DNA of 64,000 nucleotides. It comes from an uncultured Mediterraneibacter sp. (lineage in GTDB: Bacteria; Bacillota; Clostridia; Lachnospirales; Lachnospiraceae). A program made the translations under genes and the position numbers. The stretch lies in NCBI GenBank assembly GCA_944381495.1, contig CALWLJ010000017.1, forward strand, positions 1-64,000. Reading direction: 5' to 3'. The notes under the pieces were generated by a model, which had not been told where the DNA came from, did not search any database, and was given only the letters and a program-made list of their open reading frames with translations. Below are positions 1,723-59,838 of the stretch, in pieces (position 1 is the first letter of the stretch; each line of letters starts with the position of its first letter).

Positions 1723-1753
1723 GATTATAATGAGATAAACGGAGTAGAAAGGA

Positions 1754-2593
1754 TTGGAATATATGCGGATTGTCAGATTAGGACTGATTATTGTATTTCT
1801 GTTGTCTCTCGGGCTGTTTGGCGTAACGGAAGCGGCTCAGTTTGTCCTTCAGGACCGGACAGAGCCTGAGATCACCAGTGACCGGGATGTCCTTGAGATT
1901 ACATGTGATTATACGGAGGATCAGCTCATGGAAGGGCTGAGCGCCAGTGATGAGAAGGACGGAGATCTGACATCCCAGATCATTGCCGGCTCTTTCTCCC
2001 GGTTTATAGAGGAAGGGGTTTCTAATATTACATATGTGGTGTTTGATTCTTCCAATCATCCGGCTTCCCTGACCAGAAAGGTACATTTTACAGACTATCA
2101 TTCTCCCAGGTTTACACTGACTGAGCCTCTGGTATTTTCAGAGGAGGAAGGCAGCTATACGGAAGCAATGGAACGTCTGGGTGCCACAGATCAGCTGGAC
2201 GGCGATCTGAAGGACTGGATCACCCAGACGGATACGGATGTGAATTATCAGCGGATTGGCGCCTATACCATGAACGTCCAGGTGGAGAGCAGTCTGGGAG
2301 CGGTATCAGAGCTGGCTCTGCCGGTCCATGTAGTGAGCGGGGAGAGCCGGAATGTGGATATTGCTCTGACCGGCGGGATTCTGTATACCCGGACAGGCAG
2401 TGAGATCAATCCTATGGATTATGTGAGGGAAGTTACAGATTCCCGGGGAGATCAGCTGGATACTTCGACGATAGATGTCTCGTCCAATGTGGACACCTCT
2501 CAGCCGGGCGTATATGAGATTCATTATGAAGTGAATGAAGGAAACGGAAGCAGCGGAGAGACATGGCTGACCGTTGTGGTGACAGAGGAGTGA
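1754..2593 (+). CDS. Secreted/membrane-anchored protein with DUF5011-like Ig domains
   Basis: An N-terminal hydrophobic segment (about residues 6-26) acts as signal peptide or anchor. It is followed by beta-rich repeats of the bacterial Ig-like DUF5011 kind: the recurring pattern is D..EPEI, then 'A.D..DGDL', then 'G.Y.I.Y.V' (for example SASDEKDGDLTSQI and GATDQLDGDLKDWI). Such domains are extracellular spacers or adhesion modules. TTG at 1754 (GGAG 9 bases upstream) or ATG at 1763 (AAAGGA upstream) could be the start; the sequence does not decide between them. It lies 10 bases before the first BY-kinase gene, so it is probably in the polysaccharide operon. Its precise role is unknown; it may assist polymer export or cell-surface display. 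Confidence 0.8.
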   Translation: MEYMRIVRLGLIIVFLLSLGLFGVTEAAQFVLQDRTEPEITSDRDVLEITCDYTEDQLMEGLSASDEKDGDLTSQIIAGSFSRFIEEGVSNITYVVFDSSNHPASLTRKVHFTDYHSPRFTLTEPLVFSEEEGSYTEAMERLGATDQLDGDLKDWITQTDTDVNYQRIGAYTMNVQVESSLGAVSELALPVHVVSGESRNVDIALTGGILYTRTGSEINPMDYVREVTDSRGDQLDTSTIDVSSNVDTSQPGVYEIHYEVNEGNGSSGETWLTVVVTEE

Positions 2594-2603
2594 AGGAGGA
2601 TTT

Positions 2604-4019
2604 ATGGAGCGGGAAATATTTAGAATAGATGAAATCAGCTGGCAGGGACTCTGCATGGATCTGATCCGGAATGCATGGATGATCCTTCTTGCCGCAGTTA
2701 CGGTCTGGCTTGCTGCTGGTGGGATCCACAATGTTATATATGAACCCCAGTATTCTGCTTCGGCGACTCTTGTAGTCAGTACAGGAGGATCGGGAAATAC
2801 CTATTCATCTCTTTCTACAGCTTCACAGATGGCGGACGTCTTCGGCCAGGTTTTCCAGAGTGACGCGCTCAGAAATCTGATCGCCGGAGATGCAGGGGAG
2901 GAGATCCAGGGAACGGTCACCTGTCAGTCCGTGGAGGAGACGAATCTGCTCGTCCTTACGGCTGTAAGTCCGGATCCCAGACAGGCATATCTCTATCTCA
3001 ATTCGGCGTTGAAGCACTACGAAGAAGTTGCGGGAGATGTATTTGCCAATTCGGTTCTCCAGGTTGTACAGGAACCGGAAGTGCCGGAACATCCTTCCAA
3101 TACTTCCTGGATCCTGTCTCAGAGGTATCTCCTTGTTTTGTTGGGAGCTTTGGCCATGGCTGCTGTGATCTGTCTGTTTTATGTGCTGCGATTTACGGTG
3201 AAGAATGAGGTGTGTGCTTCCAGACAGCTGGACGGGAAGATCCGGGGCGTTATTCCGTATGAAAAGAAACAGACCGGAGAGTGGAAGAAGAACCCGAAAC
3301 AGTCTCTGCTGCTGAATTCGCCTCTTGTGACAATGGCTTTTGCCGAGGCGGCCCGCAGTACGGCTGCAAAGATAGAGTACCGTATGCGGAAGAAAGGACA
3401 GAAGATCCTTCTTGTTGCCAGTGTTACGGAAAATGAAGGCAAGTCTACGGTTGCGGCAAATATTGCTCTGGCGATGGCCGAAAAACGCCGGAGAGTCCTT
3501 CTTGTGGACGGCGATATGAGAAAGCCGGCTCAGTATAAAGTCTTTGAGATCAAAGGGGAGAAGGAGCATTCTCTTGATCATGTATTGACTGGACAGACTG
3601 GATGGAAAGAGGCATTGTATTACAACAAATCCTGTCACATCATGGAACTCCTGCAGTTCCAGCCTGCGGAGCATCCGGAGGCGGTACTCGGGGAGGGAAG
3701 GATCGAATCGCTTATGGAGGAATGGAAGGAGAACTTTGATTACATTATTGTGGACTGTTCTCCAACGGCCGTGTCTACGGATGCGGAAATCTGGATGGAT
3801 GCGGCGGATACGGTACTGCTTGTAGTCCGTGAGGACTGGGCGGATATCCGGGTCATTAATGACATGGTTGACATTATATGGCAGAGCGGAACAGATTTCG
3901 CGGGATTTATCCTGAATGCATTTCACCGGGAATGGTTCCGGGATATGCCTTCCCGCTATGGAAGAAGCGGGTATTCCGGCTATGAGAGTCCGGAATATGG
4001 AGAGGAGGAGAGAGGATAA
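2604..4019 (+). CDS. Wzz/BY-kinase: chain-length determinant fused to tyrosine kinase (first copy)
   Basis: An N-terminal Wzz-type region has a transmembrane helix near residues 20-40, an extracellular loop and a second helix near 175-195. A cytoplasmic BY-kinase domain follows. Kinase motifs are Walker A ENEGKST (about residue 276), Walker A' LLVDGDMRKP and Walker B YIIVDCSP. The C-terminus carries several tyrosines (SRYGRSGYSGYESPEYG), the usual autophosphorylation cluster. Family members control polymerisation and export of capsular or exopolysaccharide through cycles of tyrosine phosphorylation. The start is set by GGAGG seven bases before the ATG. Five bases separate it from the second, similar gene. 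One protein carrying both adaptor and kinase is typical of Gram-negative Wzc and of some Clostridia; Bacilli usually split the two. Confidence 0.9.
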   Translation: MEREIFRIDEISWQGLCMDLIRNAWMILLAAVTVWLAAGGIHNVIYEPQYSASATLVVSTGGSGNTYSSLSTASQMADVFGQVFQSDALRNLIAGDAGEEIQGTVTCQSVEETNLLVLTAVSPDPRQAYLYLNSALKHYEEVAGDVFANSVLQVVQEPEVPEHPSNTSWILSQRYLLVLLGALAMAAVICLFYVLRFTVKNEVCASRQLDGKIRGVIPYEKKQTGEWKKNPKQSLLLNSPLVTMAFAEAARSTAAKIEYRMRKKGQKILLVASVTENEGKSTVAANIALAMAEKRRRVLLVDGDMRKPAQYKVFEIKGEKEHSLDHVLTGQTGWKEALYYNKSCHIMELLQFQPAEHPEAVLGEGRIESLMEEWKENFDYIIVDCSPTAVSTDAEIWMDAADTVLLVVREDWADIRVINDMVDIIWQSGTDFAGFILNAFHREWFRDMPSRYGRSGYSGYESPEYGEEERG

Positions 4020-4024
4020 CACCT

Positions 4025-5521
4025 ATGGAAGAACGGAAGCGAAATATGACAGAAACCACAGAAGATGAGATGGAGATTGATCTTGTACTGCTTTTTCATA
4101 CCATGTGGAGGAGTTTCCTGAAAATGTGGTGGCTGTTCCTGATCCTGATTGCAGTGTGTGCCGGAGGTTTCCTTGCTTTTCAGTCCATCCGGTATGAACC
4201 GTTGTATGCAAGCACGGCAACCTTTACTGTGGGAACCGGCGATGGAGAAAGCGGAAGCTACAGCTTCTACTATAATGCGAGTACTGCGGATCAGTTGTCA
4301 AAGACTTTTCCTTATATCCTGAACAGCAGTTATTTCCGCAGCGTGCTGCTTGAACGGCTGGGGACGGATACCCTGAATGGGACAATTACCGCACAGACCA
4401 TTGAGAATTCCAACGTGGTTACCATGCGGGTGGAGAGTCCGTCTGCAGAGGACGCCCACAGCATTCTTGTTACTGCACTGGAAATATATCCCGAGACGGC
4501 GCGGTTTGTTCTGGGAGATATTCAGTTCAGTTATCTCAATGAGCCGGAGACGCCTCAGCAGCCGTTTAATCATATCAGTCCGCTGAGATGTCTTGTGATG
4601 GGCGGAGCGGCAGGCGTATTCCTCGGTCTTGCCTTCCTTGGCCTTACAGCGTTGTTCCGCAGGACTGTCCGCAGTACAGAGGAGATGAAGAAGATTACCA
4701 GCCTTCGGTGTCTTGCCTCTGTTCCTTATGTGCGGATGAAAGCAAGAAATGCAAAAAAAGTCCGTCCCCTGTCTGTGACAGACCGGAGGATATCATATGG
4801 ATACAGAGAAAGTATCCGTGCGCTCCAGACCAGGATTGAGAAAGCGATGAAGAAAGAGGACAGCAGGATCCTTCTCGTTACGAGTACGTCTTCCGGAGAA
4901 GGCAAATCGACCCTGGCTGCCAATCTGGCTGAAATGTTCGCTATGCGCGGAAACCGTGTCCTTCTGATCGATGGAGATCTGAGAAAGCAGACAGACGGAC
5001 AGATGCTCGGCGCAAAAAGAGGAGACGGTCTGATCGAGCTTGTCCATGGAAAGAAAACAGAGGAAGAAGTGCTGCGGAAGATGAAGGGGAGCAGTATGTG
5101 GTTCCTGGGAGGAAGCCGGCCGGCAAAGAACCCGGTGTCGGTTTTAAGCAGCGGGAAACTGCCTGCATTTCTGAAAAATATGCGGGAAAAAATGGACTAT
5201 ATCGTCATCGATACCCCGCCCTGCGGTATGTTCCAGGATGCCGGAATCTTTGCCGAGTATGCGGACAGTATTCTGTATGTCGTGAAGTATGACAGCGTGC
5301 CTCAGCGGGAGATACGGGCCGGTTTTTCCTCCCTCGGCGGACGGAATACGTCTTTCCTCGGATATGTATTCAATGAATATCCAGAATCCGCCAGCGAATA
5401 CGGGTACGGAAGATACGGATATGGAAACTATGGATACGGAGGTTACGGGTACCGGAGATACGGTTACGGACACGGATACGGATCCTATGGCGAACGTGAA
5501 AGGAGCGGGGAGACAGAGTAA
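4025..5521 (+). CDS. Wzz/BY-kinase, second copy, with Tyr/Gly-rich tail
   Basis: Same architecture as the preceding gene: a Wzz domain with helices near residues 37-55 and 190-210, then a BY-kinase with Walker A SSGEGKST (about residue 289), Walker A' LLIDGDLRKQ and Walker B YIVIDTPP. The last 40 residues (about 458-498) are a run of YG and YGYG units, encoded by near-tandem TAYGGA hexamers at about 5398-5485. This is a much denser tyrosine cluster than in the first copy. The stop codon TAA overlaps the ATG of the PHP phosphatase gene (TAATG), so the kinase and its likely phosphatase are translationally coupled. The role is regulation of polysaccharide chain length and export. Dividing the work between the two copies is inference. 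Confidence 0.9.
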   Translation: MEERKRNMTETTEDEMEIDLVLLFHTMWRSFLKMWWLFLILIAVCAGGFLAFQSIRYEPLYASTATFTVGTGDGESGSYSFYYNASTADQLSKTFPYILNSSYFRSVLLERLGTDTLNGTITAQTIENSNVVTMRVESPSAEDAHSILVTALEIYPETARFVLGDIQFSYLNEPETPQQPFNHISPLRCLVMGGAAGVFLGLAFLGLTALFRRTVRSTEEMKKITSLRCLASVPYVRMKARNAKKVRPLSVTDRRISYGYRESIRALQTRIEKAMKKEDSRILLVTSTSSGEGKSTLAANLAEMFAMRGNRVLLIDGDLRKQTDGQMLGAKRGDGLIELVHGKKTEEEVLRKMKGSSMWFLGGSRPAKNPVSVLSSGKLPAFLKNMREKMDYIVIDTPPCGMFQDAGIFAEYADSILYVVKYDSVPQREIRAGFSSLGGRNTSFLGYVFNEYPESASEYGYGRYGYGNYGYGGYGYRRYGYGHGYGSYGERERSGETE

Positions 5522-6255
5522 TGTATGATCTTCACATGCACATCCTTCCCGGTCTGGACGACGGAGCCGAGGACATGGAAGAAGCCGTGGAAATGGCGGA
5601 GACGGCCGTCTTCGGCGGCACTGCAGTCTGCGCGGCTACCTCTCATGGAAAGTTGTCAAAGTTCTCACTCCGTGATCTGGAACAGTATCTTGCTGCATAC
5701 CGGAAAAAACTGGAGGAATTCCGCCGGGAGCTGACGAGAAGACAGATCCCCCTGCAGGTGGTCAGCGGCATGGAACTGCTGGCTGACAGCAGGCTGCTTG
5801 AATACGCAGAATCCCATGTCCTTCCTGGATATGGAACAACAAGGACGATTCTGGTGGAGTTTCATTTTGATATTTCTTTCCGGCGGGCGGCAGATACGCT
5901 GGATGAACTTCAGCGGAAAAAGTACCGCGTCATTCTGGCTCATCCGGAGCGATATGACTTCATCAGACAGGAATATCAGCGCGCGCGGACCCTGTTCCGG
6001 GACGGCGTGATCCTGCAGGTAAATTCAGGAAGCATGGAGGGAAGATTTGGAAGAAGTGTGTTCCACGCCGCAGATTATATTCTCGGGGAAGGGCTGGCCG
6101 GACTTGTTGCCTCTGATGCCCACGATTCTGTCCTGCGCACTGCGGATCTGGAAGAAACTGCCAGAATCCTTGATCTTTCCTACGGAAACGGGGCCGCAGA
6201 GGTCCTTCTGGAAGAGAACCCCGCGCGCATCCTCAGCGGCCGTCATATCATATAG
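5521..6255 (+). CDS. CpsB/YwqE-type PHP-domain protein-tyrosine phosphatase
   Basis: 244 residues, opening with the PHP metal-binding signature DLHMHILPGLDDGAED, which is diagnostic of CpsB/YwqE/Wzb-like manganese-dependent tyrosine phosphatases. Further metal-ligand candidates are H of ATSHGK, the HPERY segment and the late SDAH motif. These enzymes dephosphorylate the tyrosine cluster of BY-kinases, and the two genes directly upstream encode such kinases. It shares one base with the upstream stop codon. A strong terminator follows at 6274-6308, which closes this first transcription unit. Confidence 0.92.
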   Translation: MYDLHMHILPGLDDGAEDMEEAVEMAETAVFGGTAVCAATSHGKLSKFSLRDLEQYLAAYRKKLEEFRRELTRRQIPLQVVSGMELLADSRLLEYAESHVLPGYGTTRTILVEFHFDISFRRAADTLDELQRKKYRVILAHPERYDFIRQEYQRARTLFRDGVILQVNSGSMEGRFGRSVFHAADYILGEGLAGLVASDAHDSVLRTADLEETARILDLSYGNGAAEVLLEENPARILSGRHII

Positions 6256-48450: not shown

Positions 48451-48538
48451 TATGCACGAATTTTTAAATAATTTTCGACCGTTGGTCAATTTGAATAAAA
48501 TATAACCTTTATTTAACGATATCTTGTAGATATGCAAA

Positions 48539-48567
48539 TTGAAATTTTTGCCGGTATTTGGTATATT
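48539..48567 (+). promoter_or_regulatory. Promoter of the NRPS-like gene
   Basis: TTGAAA at 48539 and TATATT at 48562, with a 17-base spacer. It is the only good promoter in the 321-base gap 48362-48682. The remaining leader (about 48574-48682) holds a small perfect hairpin TCGACT-tgc-AGTCGA and no riboswitch that I recognise. Confidence 0.7.
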
Positions 48568-48682
48568 ATCCTCGTAACATATAAACGGCAACAGGATTTT
48601 CATGGAATCGACTTGCAGTCGAAAATGGATTCTGCCCTTATTCTTTCCCTTGGGGAGAGAAGACGGAATATAGGGGGAAAAT

Positions 48683-51600
48683 ATGATTACCTACGAAAAC
48701 ACAAAAACAGTTTATGATCTGGTGGAAAATGCGGGAAAAGAGCATGGAGACAAAGTATTTCTTCGTTATGAGGACAATGATGTTATCTATGATGTTACCT
48801 ATCGGCAGTTCAGAGAGGAATGTGACGCTATTGCAGCATGGACAAAGGAACAGGATGCCAAGACAGGGCACAAGGTCCAGGTGGGGCTTCTTGGCAGCAG
48901 CAGCCATTATTATCTTGCAGTTATGCTTGGGGTTATGTCTAATGGTAATACAGTAGTGCCTCTTGATATCCAGCTGGACGTGGATGGTCTGTCAGACTGT
49001 CTGAACCGGTCAGATGTAGATATCCTTTTCTATGACTGGGAGCATCATTCCCTGACAGAGGGCGCGAAAGAAAAATGCCCCAGAGTCAGATCCTATATAT
49101 CATTTCAGCACGGAAGACATGTGCCATGTTCTGATAATATTCTTAAGGAGTTTAAAGGTCGTACAGTTACGCCCCGTGTTGCGGAGACTGACTGCGCAAT
49201 GATCCTGTTCACATCCGGAACAACAGGCCGGGGAAAAGGCGTTATGCTTTCCAACCGGAATCTGATCGATAATACATTCAGCAGTACAGATAAAAATCAC
49301 CCTGAAAATGAAATTTACTTAAATATACTTCCAATCCATCATGTATTCTGTATTAACAGTGATGTACTTGTGGCTATGCGCTATGGTGTCCTGTTGTGCC
49401 TGAACAGGGATATGAGCAAGCTGGCAGAGCATCTGCTCCTTTTTGAACCAACCTCCTTCCGGGCAGTTCCTATGGTGGCAAAGGCGCTTTATAATCGTTT
49501 CTGCCTGCTCAGGAAACAGAATCCGGATAAAAGTCAGGAGGAGCTGAAGGCGCAGGTGTTTGGCAGCCGCCTGCACAGAGTTGTGTGCGGAGGCGGATAT
49601 CTTACACCGGAACTGGCACAGAATTATATGGATCTTGGCATTTCCATCGGGCAGGGCTATGGCATGTCGGAATGTTCTCCTGTTATTTCCGCTCCGGACT
49701 GGGATCGACCGGATAAAGTAGCATCCGTGGGTAAGATTGTCGACCGTTGCCAGGTACGCATCGTGGACGGTGAGATCCAGGTGAAGAGTCCGTCTGTTAT
49801 GATGGGATATTATAAGGACCCGGAGAATACTGCAGAGGCAATCACAGATGACGGGTGGCTGAGGACTGGAGATCTGGGATATGTTGATGAGGAGAATTTC
49901 CTCTATCTGACCGGCAGGAAGAAAAATCTAATTATATTGAGCAATGGTGAAAATGTGGCTCCTGAGCAGATTGAGAATATGTTTGAGGATGAGACAATCG
50001 TAGAGGATATTCTTGTCTTTGAAGAAAATGATGTTATTACCGCGGAGATCTATCCGAATTTCAAATATGCGGAGTCCTGTGATATCACAGATATCGAGGG
50101 GGCAGTGGGAGAGAGTATTGCAAAGATCAATCAGAAGCTGCCTTCCTTCAAGCGTATCCTGAACTATCGGGTGCGCAAGGATCCATTTGAGAAGACGTCT
50201 TCCAGGAAGATCAAACGGTCCAATTATTTCAGCCAGAAGAAGCAGGAGGAAGAGAACCGGAAGAAGCTTGTCATGCCGGAAAACGGGCTTCAGCAGAAGA
50301 TTTATGATATTGTAGCCGGCATCATGGGCAATCAGGACTTCGGCATTGATACAGATTTTTACAGAGCCGGCATGGATTCTATGGGAAGCGTTCTTCTCCT
50401 GACTGAACTGGCGGATAATATGGATTTCTCCCTTACACTGGATGATCTGATGGCTCATGCTACGGTTGAGAAGCTGGAAGCATATTATATTCAGACTCAG
50501 AGCGAGGAAAAAGTGGATTACAGCGTGCGGCCGGTTTATCCGCTGACCAACCTGCAGATTTATTTTGCATATGTGATGAGGGGCAACACAACAGCCAACC
50601 TGCCGTCGCTGATCCATCTGGATGACAGCGTAGATCTGAATCGACTGAAAACAGCTGTCGAGGACTTGTTTGATGTCCATCCAGGTCTGAAATCCATTAT
50701 CCAGCTGGACGACGGAGCATATAAGAGTTTCCGTCATGATGATATGCGGGTTAATATCCCTATCATCAGCCAGACAGATGAAGAGTTTCAGGAGACCCGG
50801 CAGCACCTTCTTGTGCCTTACATGTATGAAAAGGATGAACCGCTTTACCATGCGGGCATTTATCAGACAGACAGCGCGAACTATCTGTTCCTTGATATCG
50901 CTCATATTGTAGGAGACGGTATGACACTGAAGATCCTTTTCGAGGATCTGAATGACCTGTATGCCGGAAAGCCGGTAGAGAAAGAGAATTATACGCTGTT
51001 CGAATATGTGCTGGATGAAAAGGCAAGGGATGCGAAAGGAAAGAGAGAGCAGGATATCACTTACTACCAGAAGCTGATGAAAGACCTTAAAATCCGCAAG
51101 AGCATCCTGACACTCAGAGATTTCCATGATTTAAACAGAGGTGAAAATGGATCGTTAAAGGGCAGGTTTAACATCAGTCCTAATCAGCTGAACGCCTTCT
51201 GCAGGAAGCACAGAGTATCTGAGAATGTCATGTTCCTGACCGCATATAATTACTGTATCAGTATTTTCAGTAATGAAAAGGATGTAGTCAGCACCAGCAT
51301 CCACAGCGGACGTACAGACAGCCGCTGGACCAGGCTTGCAGGACCGCTGTTCCTGAGCTATCTGTTCCGCTACACCAATGTTCCTCACCAGACGGTCCCG
51401 CAGCTGCTGAACAGTTCGGCGCGCCAGATCATGGAGACGATGCGCTGTCACATTTCTGCGCTCCATGCGGATGAAATGTTTTTCCAGTATCAGGGAGATA
51501 TCCTGAACCTTGATGAAATCGGCGGAGCACCGGCATACAGGGAACCGATCCAGCTGGATTCACTTCCGTTCCACCTACAGGTGATGTCCAACAAGAAAGG

Positions 51601-52288
51601 ATTCTATTTCTACGAGCTGAGATACTGGAAGAACCGTTTTGATGAACAGCAGCTGAAGATATTTATGGAATGTATGGATATCATTATGGAGGCTATGCTT
51701 ACGGAGCCATCAGTGCGCCGTCTGAAAAAGCATCTGCCGGAACGGCTTTTCCCGAAGCACTTCTTCCTGAAAGCAGGAGCGGTAAATGAGGCAGCGGGAT
51801 CAGAGCTGATTCATGATGTGTCAAAGGATACATTGGTAAAGGCATATGTTTTTGACGAGACATGCCGCAAGCAGCCATTTGGAGCATGGGGTACTCTTTA
51901 TATTATGGATCATCCGACGAAAGACTGGACAGACAAGATCACTAATCCGTATGGACCTGGCGTACTGTACCAGACCGGACTCAATGCAAGGATCCTCCCG
52001 GATGGAAGCCTGGATATCCTTGAGAGATGCGGCAGGACGATCATGGTTGAGAATCTGACTGGACGGGATTTCCTGGACCTTGGGAAGCTGGAGGATGTTC
52101 TCGAGGATTATGACGGAATCGAACATGCGGAAGCATATACATGCTGGGGGCCGGATCACCGGCTTATGCTCTGCGCGGATATAACTGGTGAGAAAGAACC
52201 AGATTTGGAAAAGCTGAGCTGCTATATTGCCCAGAAGGTGGAATCGTGTCTGGTGCCGAAGAAGATCAGTTTTACCGCAAAGCTATAA
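48683..52288 (+). CDS. NRPS-like protein: adenylation, carrier, condensation, partial A-domain end
   Basis: 1201 residues. An ANL adenylation domain (1-530) has A3 LFTSGTTGRGKG (about 176), A5 GYGMSE, A7 RTGDLGYVDEE, A8 GRKKNLIILSNGE, and lysine in KTSSRKIKR (G of the usual motif replaced by R). A carrier domain follows with S566 (GMDSMGS). A condensation domain (about 615-1045) has AHIVGDG in place of HHxxxDG; the catalytic second His (H741) and Asp (D745) remain. A final segment (about 1090-1201) resembles the last subdomain of an A domain (LYQTGLNARILPDGSLDILER), with YRTGD changed to YQTGL and no core before it. No thioesterase or reductase is present. The protein has its own promoter and terminator. 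It would join an activated acid to an acceptor; the product is unknown. Confidence 0.88.
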   Translation: MITYENTKTVYDLVENAGKEHGDKVFLRYEDNDVIYDVTYRQFREECDAIAAWTKEQDAKTGHKVQVGLLGSSSHYYLAVMLGVMSNGNTVVPLDIQLDVDGLSDCLNRSDVDILFYDWEHHSLTEGAKEKCPRVRSYISFQHGRHVPCSDNILKEFKGRTVTPRVAETDCAMILFTSGTTGRGKGVMLSNRNLIDNTFSSTDKNHPENEIYLNILPIHHVFCINSDVLVAMRYGVLLCLNRDMSKLAEHLLLFEPTSFRAVPMVAKALYNRFCLLRKQNPDKSQEELKAQVFGSRLHRVVCGGGYLTPELAQNYMDLGISIGQGYGMSECSPVISAPDWDRPDKVASVGKIVDRCQVRIVDGEIQVKSPSVMMGYYKDPENTAEAITDDGWLRTGDLGYVDEENFLYLTGRKKNLIILSNGENVAPEQIENMFEDETIVEDILVFEENDVITAEIYPNFKYAESCDITDIEGAVGESIAKINQKLPSFKRILNYRVRKDPFEKTSSRKIKRSNYFSQKKQEEENRKKLVMPENGLQQKIYDIVAGIMGNQDFGIDTDFYRAGMDSMGSVLLLTELADNMDFSLTLDDLMAHATVEKLEAYYIQTQSEEKVDYSVRPVYPLTNLQIYFAYVMRGNTTANLPSLIHLDDSVDLNRLKTAVEDLFDVHPGLKSIIQLDDGAYKSFRHDDMRVNIPIISQTDEEFQETRQHLLVPYMYEKDEPLYHAGIYQTDSANYLFLDIAHIVGDGMTLKILFEDLNDLYAGKPVEKENYTLFEYVLDEKARDAKGKREQDITYYQKLMKDLKIRKSILTLRDFHDLNRGENGSLKGRFNISPNQLNAFCRKHRVSENVMFLTAYNYCISIFSNEKDVVSTSIHSGRTDSRWTRLAGPLFLSYLFRYTNVPHQTVPQLLNSSARQIMETMRCHISALHADEMFFQYQGDILNLDEIGGAPAYREPIQLDSLPFHLQVMSNKKGFYFYELRYWKNRFDEQQLKIFMECMDIIMEAMLTEPSVRRLKKHLPERLFPKHFFLKAGAVNEAAGSELIHDVSKDTLVKAYVFDETCRKQPFGAWGTLYIMDHPTKDWTDKITNPYGPGVLYQTGLNARILPDGSLDILERCGRTIMVENLTGRDFLDLGKLEDVLEDYDGIEHAEAYTCWGPDHRLMLCADITGEKEPDLEKLSCYIAQKVESCLVPKKISFTAKL

Positions 52289-52334
52289 ATCCATATAAAA
52301 AAACGAAATTACCTATTTACCTTTTGTGAATTGT

Positions 52335-52390
52335 ATGATAGTGTTAGTACAGTAAAGCATGGCTTTGCTGCATTAACACTATCATTTTCT
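52335..52390 (+). terminator. Terminator after the NRPS-like gene
   Basis: ATGATAGTGTTA pairs with TAACACTATCAT over 12 bases. An inner helix CAGTAAAGC/GCTTTGCTG extends it, followed by TTTTCTTAT. Confidence 0.82.
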
Positions 52391-52405
52391 TATCTCGGAA
52401 AGGGA

Positions 52406-52443
52406 GTCTGCGGACCAGGCAGTAACTCTGCCGCAACGCAGAC
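52406..52443 (+). promoter_or_regulatory. Two-helix structured element in the leader of the ABC exporter genes
   Basis: GTCTGCG/CGCAGAC (7 bp) encloses GGCAG/CTGCC (5 bp, loop TAACT). No T run follows, so it is not a terminator. It lies 28 bases before the ATPase start, downstream of a terminator, and could be a cis-regulatory or stabilising structure. The class is not recognised. Confidence 0.4.
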
Positions 52444-52470
52444 CGGAATAAGAGGGAAAGGAAGCAGGAG

Positions 52471-53385
52471 ATGAAATTAGAGGTAATCAATCTGAAAAAG
52501 AGTTTCGGAGATAAAGAAGTACTCCATGGAATCTCTTTTTCCATCGAAAGCGGAAAGGCGCTTGGTCTTCTGGGAAGGAATGGCGCAGGAAAAACGACTA
52601 CCATCCGTATTCTGATGGATGTGTTCCACGCAAATGAAGGATCGATTCTGGTAGATGGGAAACCGTTCCGGACAAAGGATTTCCGAATCGGATATCTGCC
52701 GGAGGAAAGAGGACTGTATCCGAAGAAAGGAGTGCTGGAGCAGCTGATGTACCTTGCTCAGCTGCGGGGAAGCAGCCGCGCTGATGCGAAGGAACAGTCC
52801 ATGCGCTGGCTGAAACGGCTGGAAGTGGACGAATATGCCCAGAGGAAGCTGGAGACGCTGTCAAAAGGAAATCAGCAGAAAGTGCAGCTTGCGCAGACAC
52901 TGGTCTGCAATCCGGATCTTGTGATCCTGGATGAGCCTTTCAGCGGTCTGGATCCGGTAAACTCCCAGATACTTAAGGATGTGATCCGTGAGCAGATACA
53001 GGACGGGAAGCTGGTGATCTTTTCCAGCCATCAGATGAGCTATGTGGAAGAGTTCTGTGAGGATATCGTGCTCATCAACCATGGAGATGTGGTGCTCTCC
53101 GGAGACCTTGCCGAGATTAAGAGAGAATATGGACGCAACCGCCTCGTGATCGGCCTGGGGACAGAGTTCGAAGAGCCGCAGATGACTCTTGAGGACTGTC
53201 TGGGAAGCATGATACGCGTCGTGGGAAGACGAAAGGAAAAGGTGATCGTGGAGCTGAAGGATGGCTGTACCAGAGAACAGCTGCTTGCAGGACTTCTTGA
53301 GACAAGGCTGATCCCGGAAGATTTCGGAAATTACGAACCGTCTCTGACGGAGATATTTGTGGAAAAGGCAGGTGACCAGGCATGA
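52471..53385 (+). CDS. ABC exporter ATP-binding protein, NatA type
   Basis: 304 residues. Walker A GRNGAGKTTTI, Q-loop region GYLPEERGLYPKKGV, signature LSKGNQQKVQ, Walker B LVILDEPFSGLDP and the switch His in SSHQMS. A C-terminal extension of about 90 residues is typical of NatA-like subunits. The PEERGLYP motif and the 4-base overlap with the NatB-like permease gene support an ABC-2 exporter. Family members export Na+, antibiotics or peptides; the substrate here is open. Confidence 0.92.
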   Translation: MKLEVINLKKSFGDKEVLHGISFSIESGKALGLLGRNGAGKTTTIRILMDVFHANEGSILVDGKPFRTKDFRIGYLPEERGLYPKKGVLEQLMYLAQLRGSSRADAKEQSMRWLKRLEVDEYAQRKLETLSKGNQQKVQLAQTLVCNPDLVILDEPFSGLDPVNSQILKDVIREQIQDGKLVIFSSHQMSYVEEFCEDIVLINHGDVVLSGDLAEIKREYGRNRLVIGLGTEFEEPQMTLEDCLGSMIRVVGRRKEKVIVELKDGCTREQLLAGLLETRLIPEDFGNYEPSLTEIFVEKAGDQA

Positions 53386-54656
53386 GACAGTTTCTGACGG
53401 TATTGAAATTTGAGCTGAATAACTATTTTAAAAATAAGAGTTTCCTGCTGACGACCATTGTCTTAATGATCCTTGCCGTCGGCATCATTGCAGTGCCCGG
53501 GGTCATAATGAATATGGACCGGGGCGAATCGGGGAACAGCGCCGTTTCCGGAAGCGTTTCGGCGGGAGAGGAAGCAGATGGAGATGATTCAGAAGAAAGT
53601 CCAGTGTTTTTTGCACTTTGGGATAAAAACGGCAGTATCGTGGATACCGGGGCCTTCGCTGCATCTATGGGGATGAATGTAGAGTGGATCAGCTGTACAG
53701 ATGCGGATCAGGTAGAAAAGGCAGTTAACAGCGGAGAAGCGGAAGCCGGGTTTATCGTAGAGGATCTGCTTCACTATACTTATGTGGTGGAGAATAATTC
53801 CATGTATGATATGAACCAGGAAGCATTTTCTCAGGCTGCAGCCGTGACATACCGTGCGCAGATACTGACAGATCAGGGGATAGATCCGGTACAGATTGAG
53901 ACCTTGTATCAGACCCAGCCGGCAGTAGAGACTCAGATTCTGGGCAAGGACAGTGCGGGAAATTACGCCTATACATATATGCTGATCATGGTGCTGTATT
54001 TCCTTCTGATCTTCTATGGACAGATGATCGCCACATCTGTGACGTCAGAGAAGAGCAACAGAGCCATCGAGATCCTTGTTACCAGTGTGGACAGCAACAG
54101 TCTGATATTTGGAAAGGTGCTGGCAGGAGCCATAGCCGGACTGATCCAGTGCGCGCTGATCCTTGGCAGTGCAGTTGGGGCTTATCAGATCTTCGGCGAG
54201 AGCTGGGGCGGACTGTTGGATAATGTATTCGACATACCGATCCCGGTATGGGCGGCCTTTGCAGTATTTGGGATCATGGGCTATCTGCTGTATGCCTTCT
54301 GTTTCGGAATGCTGGGCGCACTGGTTTCCAAGACAGAGGATATCAGTAAGGCGGCAACACCTATTACTATGATTTATCTTGTGTCCTTTTTTATTGCCAT
54401 CTTCGGAATGACTGACAGTGACGGCATATTAATGAAAGTGGCATCCTTTATTCCGTTTACTTCAAGCAATGGAATGTTGATCCGGATCTCCATGGGCAGT
54501 GTGGAGATATGGGAGATCATCATATCGGGAGTGCTCCTTGCCGCAACATGCGCTGTAACGGGATTCCTTGCGGCGAAGATCTTCCGGTTCGGAACGCTGA
54601 TGTACGGCAATCCTATCAAGTTCACAACAGCGCTGAAGAAGATACGGGAGAAATAG
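53382..54656 (+). CDS. ABC-2 type permease, NatB type
   Basis: 424 residues. One N-terminal helix (about 20-42), a large extracellular domain (about 45-200), then five or six helices with TSVTSEKSNRAIEILVTSV, the ABC-2 coupling motif found in NatB and its relatives. The ATG overlaps the ATPase stop codon by 4 bases (ATGA). Together the two genes form a complete exporter. A promoter/terminator composite follows. Confidence 0.92.
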   Translation: MRQFLTVLKFELNNYFKNKSFLLTTIVLMILAVGIIAVPGVIMNMDRGESGNSAVSGSVSAGEEADGDDSEESPVFFALWDKNGSIVDTGAFAASMGMNVEWISCTDADQVEKAVNSGEAEAGFIVEDLLHYTYVVENNSMYDMNQEAFSQAAAVTYRAQILTDQGIDPVQIETLYQTQPAVETQILGKDSAGNYAYTYMLIMVLYFLLIFYGQMIATSVTSEKSNRAIEILVTSVDSNSLIFGKVLAGAIAGLIQCALILGSAVGAYQIFGESWGGLLDNVFDIPIPVWAAFAVFGIMGYLLYAFCFGMLGALVSKTEDISKAATPITMIYLVSFFIAIFGMTDSDGILMKVASFIPFTSSNGMLIRISMGSVEIWEIIISGVLLAATCAVTGFLAAKIFRFGTLMYGNPIKFTTALKKIREK

Positions 54657-54672
54657 AACCGCAGGCGCAATT

Positions 54673-54701
54673 TTGACAGTGAAACAGGCATACTGTATAA
54701 T
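54673..54701 (+). promoter_or_regulatory. Fully consensus promoter nested in a terminator hairpin
   Basis: TTGACA, 17-base spacer, TATAAT: all twelve bases match the consensus. The -10 lies in the loop of the terminator hairpin at 54682-54726. It drives the P1 peptidase gene, whose ATG is 65 bases downstream of the -10. Confidence 0.85.
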
Positions 54702-54726
54702 GTGAGATACGGTGTGCCTGTTTTTG
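54682..54726 (+). terminator. Terminator of the natAB-like genes, overlapping a promoter
   Basis: AAACAGGCATAC pairs with GTGTGCCTGTTT (one G-U), then TTTTG. RNA read from upstream forms the hairpin; RNA started at the nested promoter (start near 54708) lacks the 5' arm and escapes it. Confidence 0.85.
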
Positions 54727-54766
54727 TACTATTAGGATGCCCGTTTATAAGCAAAAGGAGGAGAAA

Positions 54767-55753
54767 ATGGTAATGAAGAAAGAAATCAGTGTCAGAGACA
54801 TCCAGGGAATCCGGATCGGGCAGACGGAAAACAGTGAGGCGGGAACCGGATGTACTGTCTTTCTCTCGGAAACCGGGATGGCAGCAGGTCTGGATGTGAG
54901 GGGCGGCGGCCCTGCTTCAAGAGAGTCAGAGCTTATGAATCCACTTGCGGCGGCACAGGAGATCTATGCCATTGTGCTGGCGGGAGGGAGCGCATTCGGG
55001 CTGAATGCGGCGGATGGAGTCATGCAGTATCTGGAAGAACATGGAATCGGTTTTGACGTCGGGCTCCCGGTGAAAGTGCCTCTGGTATGTCAGGCAGATC
55101 TGTTTGATCTGACAGTGGGAGACATGTATATCCGGCCGGATAAGGAGATGGGTTACAGGGCATGCAGGAATGCAGAGGACGGCGGAAACTATCGGGATGG
55201 AAATTATGGCGCCGGATGCGGTGCGACCGTCGGAAAATTTGCAGGGATGGATTACTGTATGAAATCTGGCATCGGAAGCTACGCCATACAGATCGGTGAG
55301 CTTCAGGTAGGAGCTGTCGTGGCAGTCAATGCGCTTGGAGACATTTTCGACTGGAAGAATGGAGAGAAGATTGCCGGACTGCTGGCAGAAGATAAAAAAT
55401 CTTTCCGCAGTACGGAAGAACTGATGTATGAACGGACAGAGGTGATTGAAAATAAATTTACAGGAAATACAACCATTGGTGTTGTCATTACAAATGGTAA
55501 GTTTAACAAGACATCTCTGTGCAAAATAGCCGGAATGGCCCATGACGGTTATGCTCGTTCCATACGTCCGGTCCACACGACGGCAGATGGAGACAGTATC
55601 TATGCAGTATCTGTGGGGGATGTGGAGGCGGACCAGGATCTGACAGGTACGCTTGCAGCGGAAGTGATGAGTGAGGCGATCATCCGGGCCGTGATGAACG
55701 CGGAGAGTGCTTATGGATATCCTGCTGCCAGAGACAGGGAACGGAACAGTTAA
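54767..55753 (+). CDS. P1-family (DmpA/NylC-like) N-terminal nucleophile hydrolase
   Basis: 328 residues. Family features are VRDIQGIRIGQTENSEAGTGCTV, DVRGGGPASRE, VLAGGSAFGLNAADGVM, GNYGAGCGATVGK and the self-cleavage site N234/T235 in GNTTIGVVITNG, where Thr would become the N-terminal nucleophile. Such enzymes are aminopeptidases, beta-peptidases or amide hydrolases. It is cytoplasmic, with no signal peptide. ATG 54767 has AAAGGAGGAG; the upstream ATG at 54737 lacks a site. It is transcribed from the consensus promoter at 54673. Confidence 0.9.
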   Translation: MVMKKEISVRDIQGIRIGQTENSEAGTGCTVFLSETGMAAGLDVRGGGPASRESELMNPLAAAQEIYAIVLAGGSAFGLNAADGVMQYLEEHGIGFDVGLPVKVPLVCQADLFDLTVGDMYIRPDKEMGYRACRNAEDGGNYRDGNYGAGCGATVGKFAGMDYCMKSGIGSYAIQIGELQVGAVVAVNALGDIFDWKNGEKIAGLLAEDKKSFRSTEELMYERTEVIENKFTGNTTIGVVITNGKFNKTSLCKIAGMAHDGYARSIRPVHTTADGDSIYAVSVGDVEADQDLTGTLAAEVMSEAIIRAVMNAESAYGYPAARDRERNS

Positions 55754-55762
55754 AAATCTGCA

Positions 55763-56983
55763 ATGGAGTGTGAATTACATAGAATGATGAAACAAAATAA
55801 ACTGGAAGCTCTGAAAACATATTTCGGATATGATGCGTTCCGTCCTGCCCAGGAGCAGATCATCGATCAGATCCTCTCCGGCAGGGATGTACTGGCAGTC
55901 ATGCCCACTGGTGCGGGAAAATCTCTGTGTTATCAGCTGCCGGCACTTCTGATGCCGGGGATCACAGTTGTAGTGTCTCCGCTGATCTCACTGATGATGG
56001 ATCAGGTCAAGGCGCTCAACGAAGCCGGTGTTCATGCTGCATATATCAACAGCTCTCTGACGGAAAATCAGATTGGAAAAGCGCTGGAACTTGCCGCGGC
56101 AGGGCGGTATAAGATCATCTACGTGGCGCCGGAACGGTTGGAAACTCCAAGATTTCTGGATTTCGCCTGTCATACAGAGCTGTCCATGATCACAGTGGAC
56201 GAGGCTCACTGTATTTCGCAATGGGGACAGGATTTCCGCCCCAGTTACACCCGGATCCTGTCTTTCATCCGGCAGCTGCCTGTACGGCCGGTAGTTTCTG
56301 CCTTCACAGCTACGGCGACCGAACGGGTAAGAGAGGATATACTTTTATCTCTGGAGCTTGAAGATCCTTACGAGACTGTGACCGGATTTGACAGGGAGAA
56401 TCTCTATTTCGAGGTGCGCCGGGGGAGAAACAAGAAGGAACAGATCCGAAAATATCTGGAAGAGCACCGGGAGGACAGCGGTATCATCTATTGCGCTACT
56501 CGCAAAGGTGTGGACGAGCTTTATCTGGGTCTGGAAAATGCAGGATTTGCCGTTGGGCGCTACCATGCGGGGATGAGCGCTGAGGCGAGGAAGCGGAGTC
56601 AGGAGGACTTCATTTATGACCGGATCCGGGTAATGATCGCGACCAATGCTTTCGGCATGGGAATCGACAAGTCTAATGTCCGGTATGTGATCCATTACAA
56701 TATGCCTCAGAGTATGGAAAACTATTACCAGGAGGCCGGCAGGGCCGGAAGAGACGGTGAGCCGGCAGAATGTATCCTCTATTACTCGCCACAGGACACA
56801 GTGATCAACCGTATGCTTCTTGAGAGTAAGGAAAGCTACCGGGATTATGAGGCTGAGGAACTGAGAGTGATCCAGGCGCAGGATATGGAACGGCTGCGGA
56901 AGATGGAAGCATACTGTACAACTGTGAAATGCCTTAGAGGTTATATTCTGGAATACTTCGGAGAACGGGCGCCGGAGAAGTGA
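55763..56983 (+). CDS. recQ: RecQ helicase, N-terminal part ending at an in-frame TGA
   Basis: Helicase core with motif 0 FRPAQEQIIDQIL, Walker A MPTGAGKSLCYQLP, DEAH box TVDEAHCISQWGQDFRPSY, motif III SAFTATAT, motif V NAFGMGIDKSNVRYVIHY and motif VI YQEAGRAGRDG. The zinc domain begins with C390 (KCLRGYILEYFGE), but codon 407 is TGA instead of cysteine. C390-x16-407-x2-C410-x2-C413 is exactly the E. coli spacing C380/C397/C400/C403, so only the second ligand is lost. The frame then continues uninterrupted to 57691. It starts 10 bases after the peptidase gene, without a clear ribosome-binding site; ATG 55784 or 55787 is an alternative start. Confidence 0.9.
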   Translation: MECELHRMMKQNKLEALKTYFGYDAFRPAQEQIIDQILSGRDVLAVMPTGAGKSLCYQLPALLMPGITVVVSPLISLMMDQVKALNEAGVHAAYINSSLTENQIGKALELAAAGRYKIIYVAPERLETPRFLDFACHTELSMITVDEAHCISQWGQDFRPSYTRILSFIRQLPVRPVVSAFTATATERVREDILLSLELEDPYETVTGFDRENLYFEVRRGRNKKEQIRKYLEEHREDSGIIYCATRKGVDELYLGLENAGFAVGRYHAGMSAEARKRSQEDFIYDRIRVMIATNAFGMGIDKSNVRYVIHYNMPQSMENYYQEAGRAGRDGEPAECILYYSPQDTVINRMLLESKESYRDYEAEELRVIQAQDMERLRKMEAYCTTVKCLRGYILEYFGERAPEK

Positions 56984-57691
56984 GGTAACTGTTCCAACTG
57001 TCTGACAGAATTTGAAACAATAGATGTGTCGGAAGCAGCAGCGGATGTAATCCGATGCGTGAAGGCTTCCGGACAGCGGTTTGGCGTGAATATGATCGCC
57101 GGAACTCTGTTGGGCGAGAATACGGCCAAAATACGGAATTACCGAATGGAGGAAAATCCTGTTTATGGCAAACAGAAAGGGATGGGACGGGAACGGATCA
57201 AGGATCTGATCCGGATCATGACAGAGCAGGGATACCTCCGTCAGACCCCGGATAAATATTCCCTGATCAGGCTGACAGCACAGTCAGAGCAGCTGCTTGA
57301 CCCGGATAGAGAAGAGCCTTTCCTGATGTTCTGCAAAAAGGATGAAGAAAAAGAAAGCATATCCGGCGGTTCTGGCAGTCACGCCGGCAAGGGATCCGGA
57401 AGAAAAGGATCTAAGAGCATATCCGGATCGGCGGGCATACGTGAGCTGACAGAGAAAGAGCAGGAGATGTTTGAAGAATTACGGAAGCTTAGGACTGAAC
57501 TTGCTAAGGAAAGATCTGTTCCGCCCTATATTGTGGCGTCAGATAAGACGCTGAAAGATATGTGTGTCCGTATGCCTCAGACGGATGAAGAAATGCTGGA
57601 GGTCAACGGTATGGGCGCAAAGAAACTTGCGCAGTACGGCGGACGTTTTCTGGAACGGATAAGGGAATTTACATATGAAAAGCAGATATGA
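56984..57691 (+). pseudogene. recQ: Remainder of recQ after the TGA: zinc ligands 3 and 4, RQC and HRDC domains
   Basis: Same frame as the N-terminal part, with no shift. It reads GNCSNCLTEFETIDVSEAA, then the winged-helix RQC region (ASGQRFGVNMIAGTLLG, GMGRERIKDLIRIM), a Gly/Ser/Lys linker, and an HRDC domain (ELRKLRTELAKERSVPPYIV, MLEVNGMGAKKLAQYG). All domains look intact and unscarred. A GTG at 57026 could start separate synthesis of this part, but has no convincing ribosome-binding site. Either the gene is a recent single-base pseudogene, the base is a sequencing error, or TGA is read through or recoded. Confidence 0.8.
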
Positions 57692-57722
57692 AAAAGATAT
57701 GAAAAATAGAAAGGACGGAACC

Positions 57723-58466
57723 ATGCGGATACGGGTACTGAATCGGGATATGATCAAATATCTGGCTATGTTCACAATGCTTCTGAACCATATTGCCAAT
57801 ATCTTTCTGGAGCCGGGAACAGTCCTTTTTGCCGCACTGGTTGATATCGGCTATTTTACCGCACCGGTCATGTGCTGGTTTCTTGTGGAAGGATATCATT
57901 ATACTCATTCGAAGATAATGTATGCCATCAGGCTGGCAGTGTTTGCTCTGCTGTCTGAAGTCCCGTTCTGCCTTGCTTTTTCAGAAGCATATACGGGAGA
58001 GCGGATAATCTCTTTCTGCGGCTTTAACATGATCTTTACACTGTTTTTGTGCTTTTGTATACTTCTTATCCGGGAGAAGGTTCCGGATTTCTCTGTAAAA
58101 GTTCTTCTCTATATCTGTCTGTTCTTTATATCAGCTTTTTCCGACTGGGCTCTGCTGGCGCCTGCATTTACGCTATTGTTCGCGTGGGGCAGGGGCGATA
58201 TGGGCAGAACGAAGAAAGCCTTCGCTGCCGCAGCAGGTCTTTTTGTATTATCTGATTTTGCATTTGGAGACAGTCTGTATTCTACCGTCTATAATCTTGC
58301 CTGCGCTGTTGCTTCGGCCCTGGGAGTTGCTGCTGCAGGCTTTGTGATCATATATATGTATAATGGTCAAAGGATCAGAAAAGGAGAAAAGTTTTCTAAG
58401 TGGTTTTTCTATCTGTTTTATCCGATACATCTGCTGATCCTTGGAATAATAAGGCTTATTTTGTGA
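57723..58466 (+). CDS. TraX-family integral membrane protein
   Basis: About 247 residues, seven or eight transmembrane helices. MRIRVLNRDMIKYLAMFTML, NHIANIF, VMCWFLVEGYHYTHS and a late FYLFYPIHLLILG are TraX-family signatures. TraX of the F plasmid acetylates pilin; chromosomal homologues in Firmicutes are uncharacterised and resemble acyltransferase-3 proteins. ATG 57723 has AAAGGA eight bases upstream. An ATG at 57675 in the same frame would overlap recQ by 17 bases and has a weaker site. Confidence 0.88.
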   Translation: MRIRVLNRDMIKYLAMFTMLLNHIANIFLEPGTVLFAALVDIGYFTAPVMCWFLVEGYHYTHSKIMYAIRLAVFALLSEVPFCLAFSEAYTGERIISFCGFNMIFTLFLCFCILLIREKVPDFSVKVLLYICLFFISAFSDWALLAPAFTLLFAWGRGDMGRTKKAFAAAAGLFVLSDFAFGDSLYSTVYNLACAVASALGVAAAGFVIIYMYNGQRIRKGEKFSKWFFYLFYPIHLLILGIIRLIL

Positions 58467-58468
58467 TT

Positions 58469-58483
58469 GTATACATGAATACA
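58469..58483 (+). repeat. Operator-like direct repeat, copy 1, ahead of sbcD
   Basis: GTATACATGAATACA; 14 of 15 bases match the second copy at 58542. Each copy is an imperfect palindrome (TGTAT...ATACA). No known regulator consensus fits. Confidence 0.5.
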
Positions 58484-58541
58484 TTTTAAAACGACACATA
58501 TAATAGAACGTGATAAAATAATATATATGTAAGAAAAGATG

Positions 58542-58556
58542 GTATACAAGAATACA
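58542..58556 (+). repeat. Operator-like direct repeat, copy 2, ahead of sbcD
   Basis: GTATACAAGAATACA, 73 bases after copy 1, about seven helical turns, which places both copies on the same face of the DNA. It lies 128 bases before the sbcD ATG. A TATAAT lies between the copies at 58499. Confidence 0.5.
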
Positions 58557-58683
58557 ATTATAGAAACCTTTACATATTAACAAATACGGGCTTATTTTTC
58601 AGTGCTGCTTATGTCTATTTGTGTTACACTGGAAATATATTTGGCAAACTGAGATTGTATTTAGCGAAAGGAGAAAAACCAGA

Positions 58684-59838
58684 ATGAGATTTTTTCATCT
58701 CTCAGACCTTCATATTGGCCTGAAGCTAATCAACCGTGATCTGAAGGAGGATCAGGTATATATTCTGGATCAGATTGTTGATATTGCTGTCAGAGAGCGC
58801 CCGGATGCTGTTCTTGTGGCAGGTGATATATATGATAAAGCAATCCCGTCAGCGGAGGCAGTAGAGGTATTTGACCATTTTATCGGCAGACTTTCTTCGG
58901 AACTGCCGGATGCATCGGTCATGCTGATCAGCGGAAATCATGACAGTGGTCCGCGTGTTAACTGTTTTCGTAGTGTCCTTTCCCGGCAGAATGTTCATAT
59001 GATCGGACTGCCGCCGTTAACGAAAAAAGACGGTATGGAAAAGATCGTTCTTTCCGACAAGTACGGAGATGTGAATTTTTATCTCCTTCCTTTTGTAAAG
59101 CCGTCCATGGTAAAGCAAATCGTGGGTACGGATGAAAATGGCAATAATCTGTCATATAATGAAACAATCCGTCGGCTTGTCGCAAGAGAAGATATCGACC
59201 CCTCTGAAAGGAATGTGATCGTCAGCCACCAATTCTATCTTCCTGCCGGGAAAAGGGCGGATGAAGTGGAACGAATGGATTCGGAGATCCGTACGGTGGG
59301 GAATATCGATGAGGTTTCTGCGGATATCCTCGAGCCCTTCGACTATGCAGCTCTGGGACATATCCACAAGCCCATGCAGCTCGGAAATGAATTCTGCCGC
59401 TACTGCGGTACTCCGCTTGCCTGTTCTGTCAGTGAAGCGGGACAGCAGAAGGGAATCGTTATGGCAGAATTGGGACCAAAAGGGGACCGGAAGACAACCG
59501 TTCTCCCTCTGGAACCTCTTCGCCAGGTACGTGTGATCAGGGGAGTGCTGGAAGAGGTACTGGAGCAGGGATGTGATGACTATGTGACTGTGGTCCTGAC
59601 GGACAGAGTGGATCTTGACGTCCTTGATATGCAGGACCGGATCCGCAATGCTTTTCCCCATCTGCTGGAAATCCGGCGGGAGACTTACCGGAAGGCGGAT
59701 TATGAGAACGAGTATACACCGGAGGAAGAACTGGATCCTTTTGAACTATGCTGCTCTTTCCTGAATGAGGTGAGTGCAGAGGAAAAAGAGATTCTGAAGG
59801 ATGTGATCAATACAGTGCAGGAGGTGGCGGACAGATGA
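58684..59838 (+). CDS. sbcD: SbcD nuclease subunit (Mre11 family)
   Basis: 384 residues. The metallophosphoesterase motifs are complete: DLHIG, GDIYD, GNHDS, VSHQ and GHIHKP. It is the nuclease of the SbcCD complex, which cuts hairpins and protein-blocked DNA ends at forks. ATG 58684 opens the protein with MRFFHLSDLHIG and has AAAGGAGAA upstream; the longer frame from 58621 has no family sequence. It overlaps sbcC by 4 bases. Confidence 0.95.
   Translation: MRFFHLSDLHIGLKLINRDLKEDQVYILDQIVDIAVRERPDAVLVAGDIYDKAIPSAEAVEVFDHFIGRLSSELPDASVMLISGNHDSGPRVNCFRSVLSRQNVHMIGLPPLTKKDGMEKIVLSDKYGDVNFYLLPFVKPSMVKQIVGTDENGNNLSYNETIRRLVAREDIDPSERNVIVSHQFYLPAGKRADEVERMDSEIRTVGNIDEVSADILEPFDYAALGHIHKPMQLGNEFCRYCGTPLACSVSEAGQQKGIVMAELGPKGDRKTTVLPLEPLRQVRVIRGVLEEVLEQGCDDYVTVVLTDRVDLDVLDMQDRIRNAFPHLLEIRRETYRKADYENEYTPEEELDPFELCCSFLNEVSAEEKEILKDVINTVQEVADR

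Follow-up and report, generated by a model that had tools for sequence, protein, structure and literature searches.

An in-frame TGA at a zinc-ligand cysteine codon of recQ in a Mediterraneibacter genome with selenocysteine genes: probably a recent nonsense mutation

In RecQ helicases, zinc is held by four cysteines in the RQC domain, according to the available part of PMC5490261. For the E. coli enzyme, zinc coordination is reportedly required for folding and dispensable afterwards (PMC4872126, accessible portion), and its stability appears to require the zinc domain (PMC4464074). The Cys-to-Sec changes on record, as far as the available text of PMC1794560 covers them, concern catalytic redox cysteines. 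A literature search by title and abstract opening, with supplements and subscription papers outside its scope, found no RecQ containing selenocysteine (Sec), and among the matches listed for selenocysteine as a zinc ligand or in a zinc finger no title was relevant. The words "helicase" and "RecQ" are absent from the main text of PMC13188914 and PMC12013277.

The zinc site of an interrupted recQ

We analyzed a 64,000-nt stretch of DNA (the window) from an uncultured Mediterraneibacter sp., in which recQ carries a stop codon where these enzymes have a zinc-binding cysteine. The features of the locus are as follows.

55763..56983, + strand: first part of recQ, an open reading frame of 406 residues that covers the two helicase domains and the first zinc ligand (C390) and stops at the TGA
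56981..56983, + strand: in-frame TGA, codon 407, aligned with the zinc ligand C397 of E. coli RecQ
56984..57691, + strand: recQ frame continuing past the TGA, with the last two zinc ligands, RQC and HRDC, up to the next stop, TGA at 57689-57691
57026..57691, + strand: 221-residue frame with a GTG start, from the mechanical open reading frame list, within the continuing recQ frame

Read through, the whole span including the internal stop (55763..57691) encodes 642 residues up to the TGA at 57689-57691, with codon 407 as the sole internal stop. Pfam places DEAD at residues 27-190, Helicase_C at 224-332, RecQ_Zn_bind at 343-414, RQC at 417-516 and HRDC at 567-632, all five above cut-off; this domain set and the Cys4 zinc site do not lie within one open frame and are complete only when the TGA is read through. 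The read-through protein aligns with E. coli RecQ (1oyw) across residues 14-512, and C390, codon 407, C410 and C413 fall on C380, C397, C400 and C403 (residue numbers counted by hand from this alignment), placing the TGA at the second of the four zinc-ligand cysteines. The preliminary description, made from the sequence alone, had reported a TGA at codon 407 with the same frame open to 57691, complete RQC and HRDC domains beyond it, and the ligand spacing of the E. coli enzyme; the open reading frames with the read-through translation, the Pfam matches and the 1oyw alignment bear out these three statements in turn.

Relatives have cysteine at this position. In an alignment of RecQ loci it is found in 94 of 98 relatives' rows, while the other four have T, T, E and D, with a gap or insertion adjoining the site visible in some rows. 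The row set comprised 104 loci, of which 99, our own included, passed the coverage filter and five were dropped; two of them (L024 and L081) look like one record, so the rows are not fully independent, and for 8 of the 94 Cys rows only the residue was used, the printed codon being wrong (plus strand read for minus-strand matches). Within the genus, all 10 aligned copies encode Cys, eight by TGC and two by TGT, as had been expected for codon 407, and these Cys-coding genes occur in species with and without tRNA-Sec. An in-frame TGA aligned with a cysteine conserved in homologs is a hallmark of selenoprotein genes, and recQ shares it.

Another such hallmark, a homolog with the same TGA in a further Sec-decoding organism, was not seen at this site. 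No TGA at the zinc-ligand position was found in RecQ of 61 near genomes (44 with a match), 397 family genomes (136 with the zinc region) or 398 phylum genomes (112 with the region at E 1e-8), three sets that overlap. For the presence of the stop in further strains, a pattern scan of viral contigs gave 0 matches. The TGA-bearing recQ match in genome G170 is a fragment broken by a frameshift, with Cys still at the ligand, and that in G010 has its TGA in a frameshifted N-terminal part, away from the ligand site.

Loss of recQ in the genus and the age of the stop

recQ is deleted or decayed elsewhere in the genus. The nearest sister found, G029, has a deletion corresponding to window positions 54727-57587, which removes the preceding gene and almost the whole of recQ, leaving about 100 bp of recQ in the interior of a contig, and G010 has a recQ with an internal deletion and frameshifts. 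Orthologous recQ sequence is present in 11 of 36 same-genus genomes, eight of them with long copies without stops, one (G014) cut by a contig end and two (G010 and G029) broken; with our own genome included, recQ is broken in 3 of 12. Three of the 36 have a different RecQ at 47-52% identity, and 22 have no RecQ match or weak helicase matches only, absences for which incomplete assemblies account in part. Thus, recQ appears to be dispensable in this lineage. On either side of the deletion, DNA identity to G029 (L206; window 48468-59820) falls from 96.1% over 6.3 kb upstream to 88.5% in the 2.2 kb downstream, as might follow from a recombinational exchange of one side.

We conclude, with a probability of about 70%, that the TGA is a recent nonsense mutation that inactivates the genome's only close RecQ match. 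This conclusion is drawn because recQ is deleted in G029 and decayed in G010, because no other RecQ searched has TGA at the site, because no SECIS rises above background after the TGA and the hairpin there is common to Cys-coding relatives (see below), and because RecQ needs zinc coordination in order to fold (PMC4872126, accessible portion). It takes the base to be real, the TGA to go undecoded and the truncated protein to be inactive. Translation would stop in the middle of the zinc-binding domain, leaving a helicase core of 406 residues that has a single zinc ligand out of four and lacks RQC and HRDC, and such a fragment would be expected to misfold. The lineage would tolerate this loss because recQ is dispensable there. 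Like a pseudogene, the gene has an interrupted frame with intact orthologs elsewhere.

Several observations count against a nonsense mutation. The first is the position of the stop, since only 4-6% of nonsense changes turn Cys into TGA and about 1.2-1.8% do so at a zinc ligand. Among the 226-241 single-base nonsense changes open to the recQ orthologs of four relatives, 13 are Cys to TGA (5.4-5.8%, or 3.9-4.2% with transitions weighted fourfold), and those at the four zinc ligands account for 1.7-1.8% (1.2-1.3% with this weighting). A TGA on a zinc-ligand Cys is notable, yet within reach of chance when many broken genes are inspected; in 504 kb, 182 open stretches joined by a stop came up in a mechanical scan, most of which looked by eye like antisense or adjoining genes, and no rate was taken from them. 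The cysteine position is real evidence for Sec, but it weighs little against the absence of a distinct SECIS, and the stop was noticed because it falls on a Cys.

The second is that dN past the TGA is not raised, as in a recoded functional gene. The ratio of dN after the TGA to dN before it has a median of 2.64 (1.80-3.19) in the eight pairs that include our recQ and 2.28 (1.45-3.58) in the 28 other pairs, dN being used because dS was saturated in several pairs. Likewise, unique changes at otherwise invariant columns past the site number 3 of 73 in our gene, where the other eight species have 0-12 of 70-82. The relaxed constraint past a stop that marks pseudogenes is therefore not observed, and either the stop is young or a product is still made. 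A young stop and a decoded TGA look alike in dN, and it is the SECIS and distribution results that separate them. The remaining two observations, the SelA, SelB and TGA-containing SelD of this genome and the SECIS-like outline of a hairpin after the TGA, with pairs kept above slid controls, are taken up in the next section.

An intact and constrained frame is also what a working gene would have, and the stop could then be an error of base calling, consensus or binning, or else a minority variant taken into the consensus, with the population's recQ intact. The assembly is a draft of 39 contigs, 91.21% complete, and at least 20 kb around selC is apparently missing from it. However, a single consensus error that happens to make Cys into TGA is a priori rare, and a real mutation is plausible given the decay of recQ in near relatives, so we hold an error to be unlikely, though it is the first of the alternatives. 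The preliminary description had left three options; a very recent nonsense mutation is thus better supported than a sequencing error, and recoding is disfavored by the SECIS results, the distribution, the structural role of the ligand and the decay within the genus.

Selenocysteine genes and the hairpin after the TGA

The genome probably decodes UGA as selenocysteine for another gene, selD. Its SelB and SelD matches are above cut-off, its selD has an in-frame TGA, and a SelA-like frame adjoins selB on contig C25. On that contig, the genes run yedF-selD(TGA)-selA-selB at 255-5621 (L047), selA and yedF being named from translation without a family search. selD is the sole other TGA-containing gene confirmed in this genome; formate dehydrogenase, sought as a further selenoprotein control, had no match. 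Among the 36 same-genus genomes, 10 have selD with TGA, and those 10 and no others have tRNA-Sec above cut-off. Within the genus, selD therefore alternates between TGA and a sense codon, the TGA form accompanying tRNA-Sec in 10 of 10 cases.

The tRNA itself was not found in our assembly, which speaks against Sec in RecQ. No RF01852 match for selC lies above cut-off, the best match being tRNA-Ser, and ARAGORN reported ordinary tRNAs only in the eight loci from the RF01852 search, two C25 stretches and the selD locus. hydF has no match above cut-off either. The selD region is 90-96% identical between our genome and G029, and matches in ours to the 20-kb stretch around selC of G029 are confined to weak or repeat ones, which suggests that this region is missing from the assembly. 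Thus, selC most likely lies in the unassembled part of the genome; as an alternative to an assembly gap, selC and hydF may have been lost together. The preliminary description had held that absence of selB or selC would exclude selenocysteine: selB is present, with selA and the TGA-containing selD, and selC was not found but is likely in an assembly gap with hydF missing too, so this quick refutation does not apply.

Two side observations concern the surroundings of selC. selC and hydF are immediate neighbors in 9 of the 10 same-genus loci (L160-L174), which links genes for selenocysteine with genes for hydrogenase maturation. A dispersed repeat about 40 bp long, with the palindromic core CAAGACTCGC-NN-GCGAGTCTTG, has a copy beside selC in G029 (L167 1629-1671), which is matched at 13 places in our genome (C1, C3, C4, C5, C6, C8, C11, C20 and C30) and at none in the 64,000-nt window at up to 2 mismatches.

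The sequence after the recQ TGA can be folded into a hairpin with a SECIS-like outline.

57001..57033, + strand: predicted hairpin of 11 pairs with loop GAAACAAU, whose G lies at +31 after the TGA (57014)

A smaller hairpin, CTGT-CTG-ACAG, had been drawn earlier and is present at 56998-57008; the remark that its loop has no early G holds for it but misses the longer hairpin, the loop of which opens with G. The SECIS search that had been proposed for the bases past the TGA, run with a descriptor of our own with limits after bSECISearch, does not set this hairpin above background, and it does set apart the element of selD. The best G-loop hairpin of recQ has -8.1 kcal/mol, and the 57 nt after the TGA fold at -11.6; in selD, the element is a hairpin of 9 bp and -14.3 kcal/mol whose GUU loop has its G at +34, similar in relatives, and the 57 nt past the TGA of selD reach -25.0. 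Of 828 background Cys codons, taken from frames of at least 250 open codons in all six frames of the window and C25 and hence in part antisense, 131 (15.8%) equal or better the recQ G-loop hairpin and 1.7% that of selD, while a total fold energy as low is found for 38% and 0.1%, respectively. A SECIS standing out from background, as selenoprotein genes have, is thus seen in selD and not in recQ.

Moreover, the hairpin did not arise together with the TGA. Three Cys-coding relatives keep 10, 10 and 11 of its 11 pairs, and the other seven keep 7-9. On average, relatives keep 8.4 pairs and slid controls 2.2-5.5, which hints mildly at a shared shape, the structure having been derived from one of the compared sequences.

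Decoding of this TGA by SelB, giving a full-length RecQ with Sec in place of the zinc-ligand Cys, would account for the Sec genes, for a stop on a Cys conserved in relatives, for the intact and constrained frame beyond it and for a G-loop hairpin downstream. Yet such a hairpin is common at background Cys codons and predates the TGA, no second TGA-bearing RecQ was found in the genomes searched, and the site aligns with a structural zinc ligand (1oyw; role per the accessible portion of PMC4872126) and not with a redox-active Cys of the kind in the recorded changes (PMC1794560, available text). We thus consider Sec in RecQ very improbable. Atypical SECIS elements exist, so the missing distinct SECIS lowers the claim of selenocysteine without deciding it. 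In a nascent form of the same idea, to which we give hardly any credence, one base change put UGA on the zinc-ligand Cys and the hairpin already there, with its G at +31, lets SelB decode it. If Sec were incorporated, RecQ would, to our knowledge, have no precedent among bacterial selenoproteins, either as a DNA helicase or in using Sec as a structural zinc ligand. Selenium would then occupy a structural metal site of a DNA-repair enzyme, outside the redox role described in the available part of PMC1794560.

A partial product could arise if the TGA were leaky and read as some other amino acid, or if translation re-initiated past the stop and gave two pieces. Such a product would fit the intact and constrained downstream frame and the 221-residue GTG frame, but the break lies inside the zinc-binding domain, the GTG frame has 0 of 4 zinc ligands and no matched relative in the three overlapping genome sets (61, 397 and 398) has a stop at the same point, making it scarcely credible.

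Comparison with known systems

The locus resembles E. coli RecQ (1oyw) and its orthologs in the helicase and RQC domains and in the Cys4 spacing, C-x16-C-x2-C-x2-C, and differs from them in the codon of the second ligand, which is TGA here. SelD of the same genome is alike in having an in-frame TGA where same-genus homologs have a sense codon. However, selD has a strong 9-bp hairpin with a GUU loop and a TGA that recurs with tRNA-Sec in 10 of 36 genomes, and recQ has neither.

The closest likeness of the nonsense mutation that we favor is to single-nonsense pseudogenes of dispensable genes, which have one in-frame stop in an otherwise intact gene and orthologs that are deleted or frameshifted in near relatives. 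The recQ stop differs in that its TGA falls on a conserved Cys in a genome with Sec genes, and for this reason recQ mimics a selenoprotein gene. If the nonsense mutation is real, a DNA-repair helicase has been lost more than once inside one genus, and recQ provides a clean small case in which a TGA on a Cys codon coincidentally imitates a new selenoprotein in a Sec-decoding genome.
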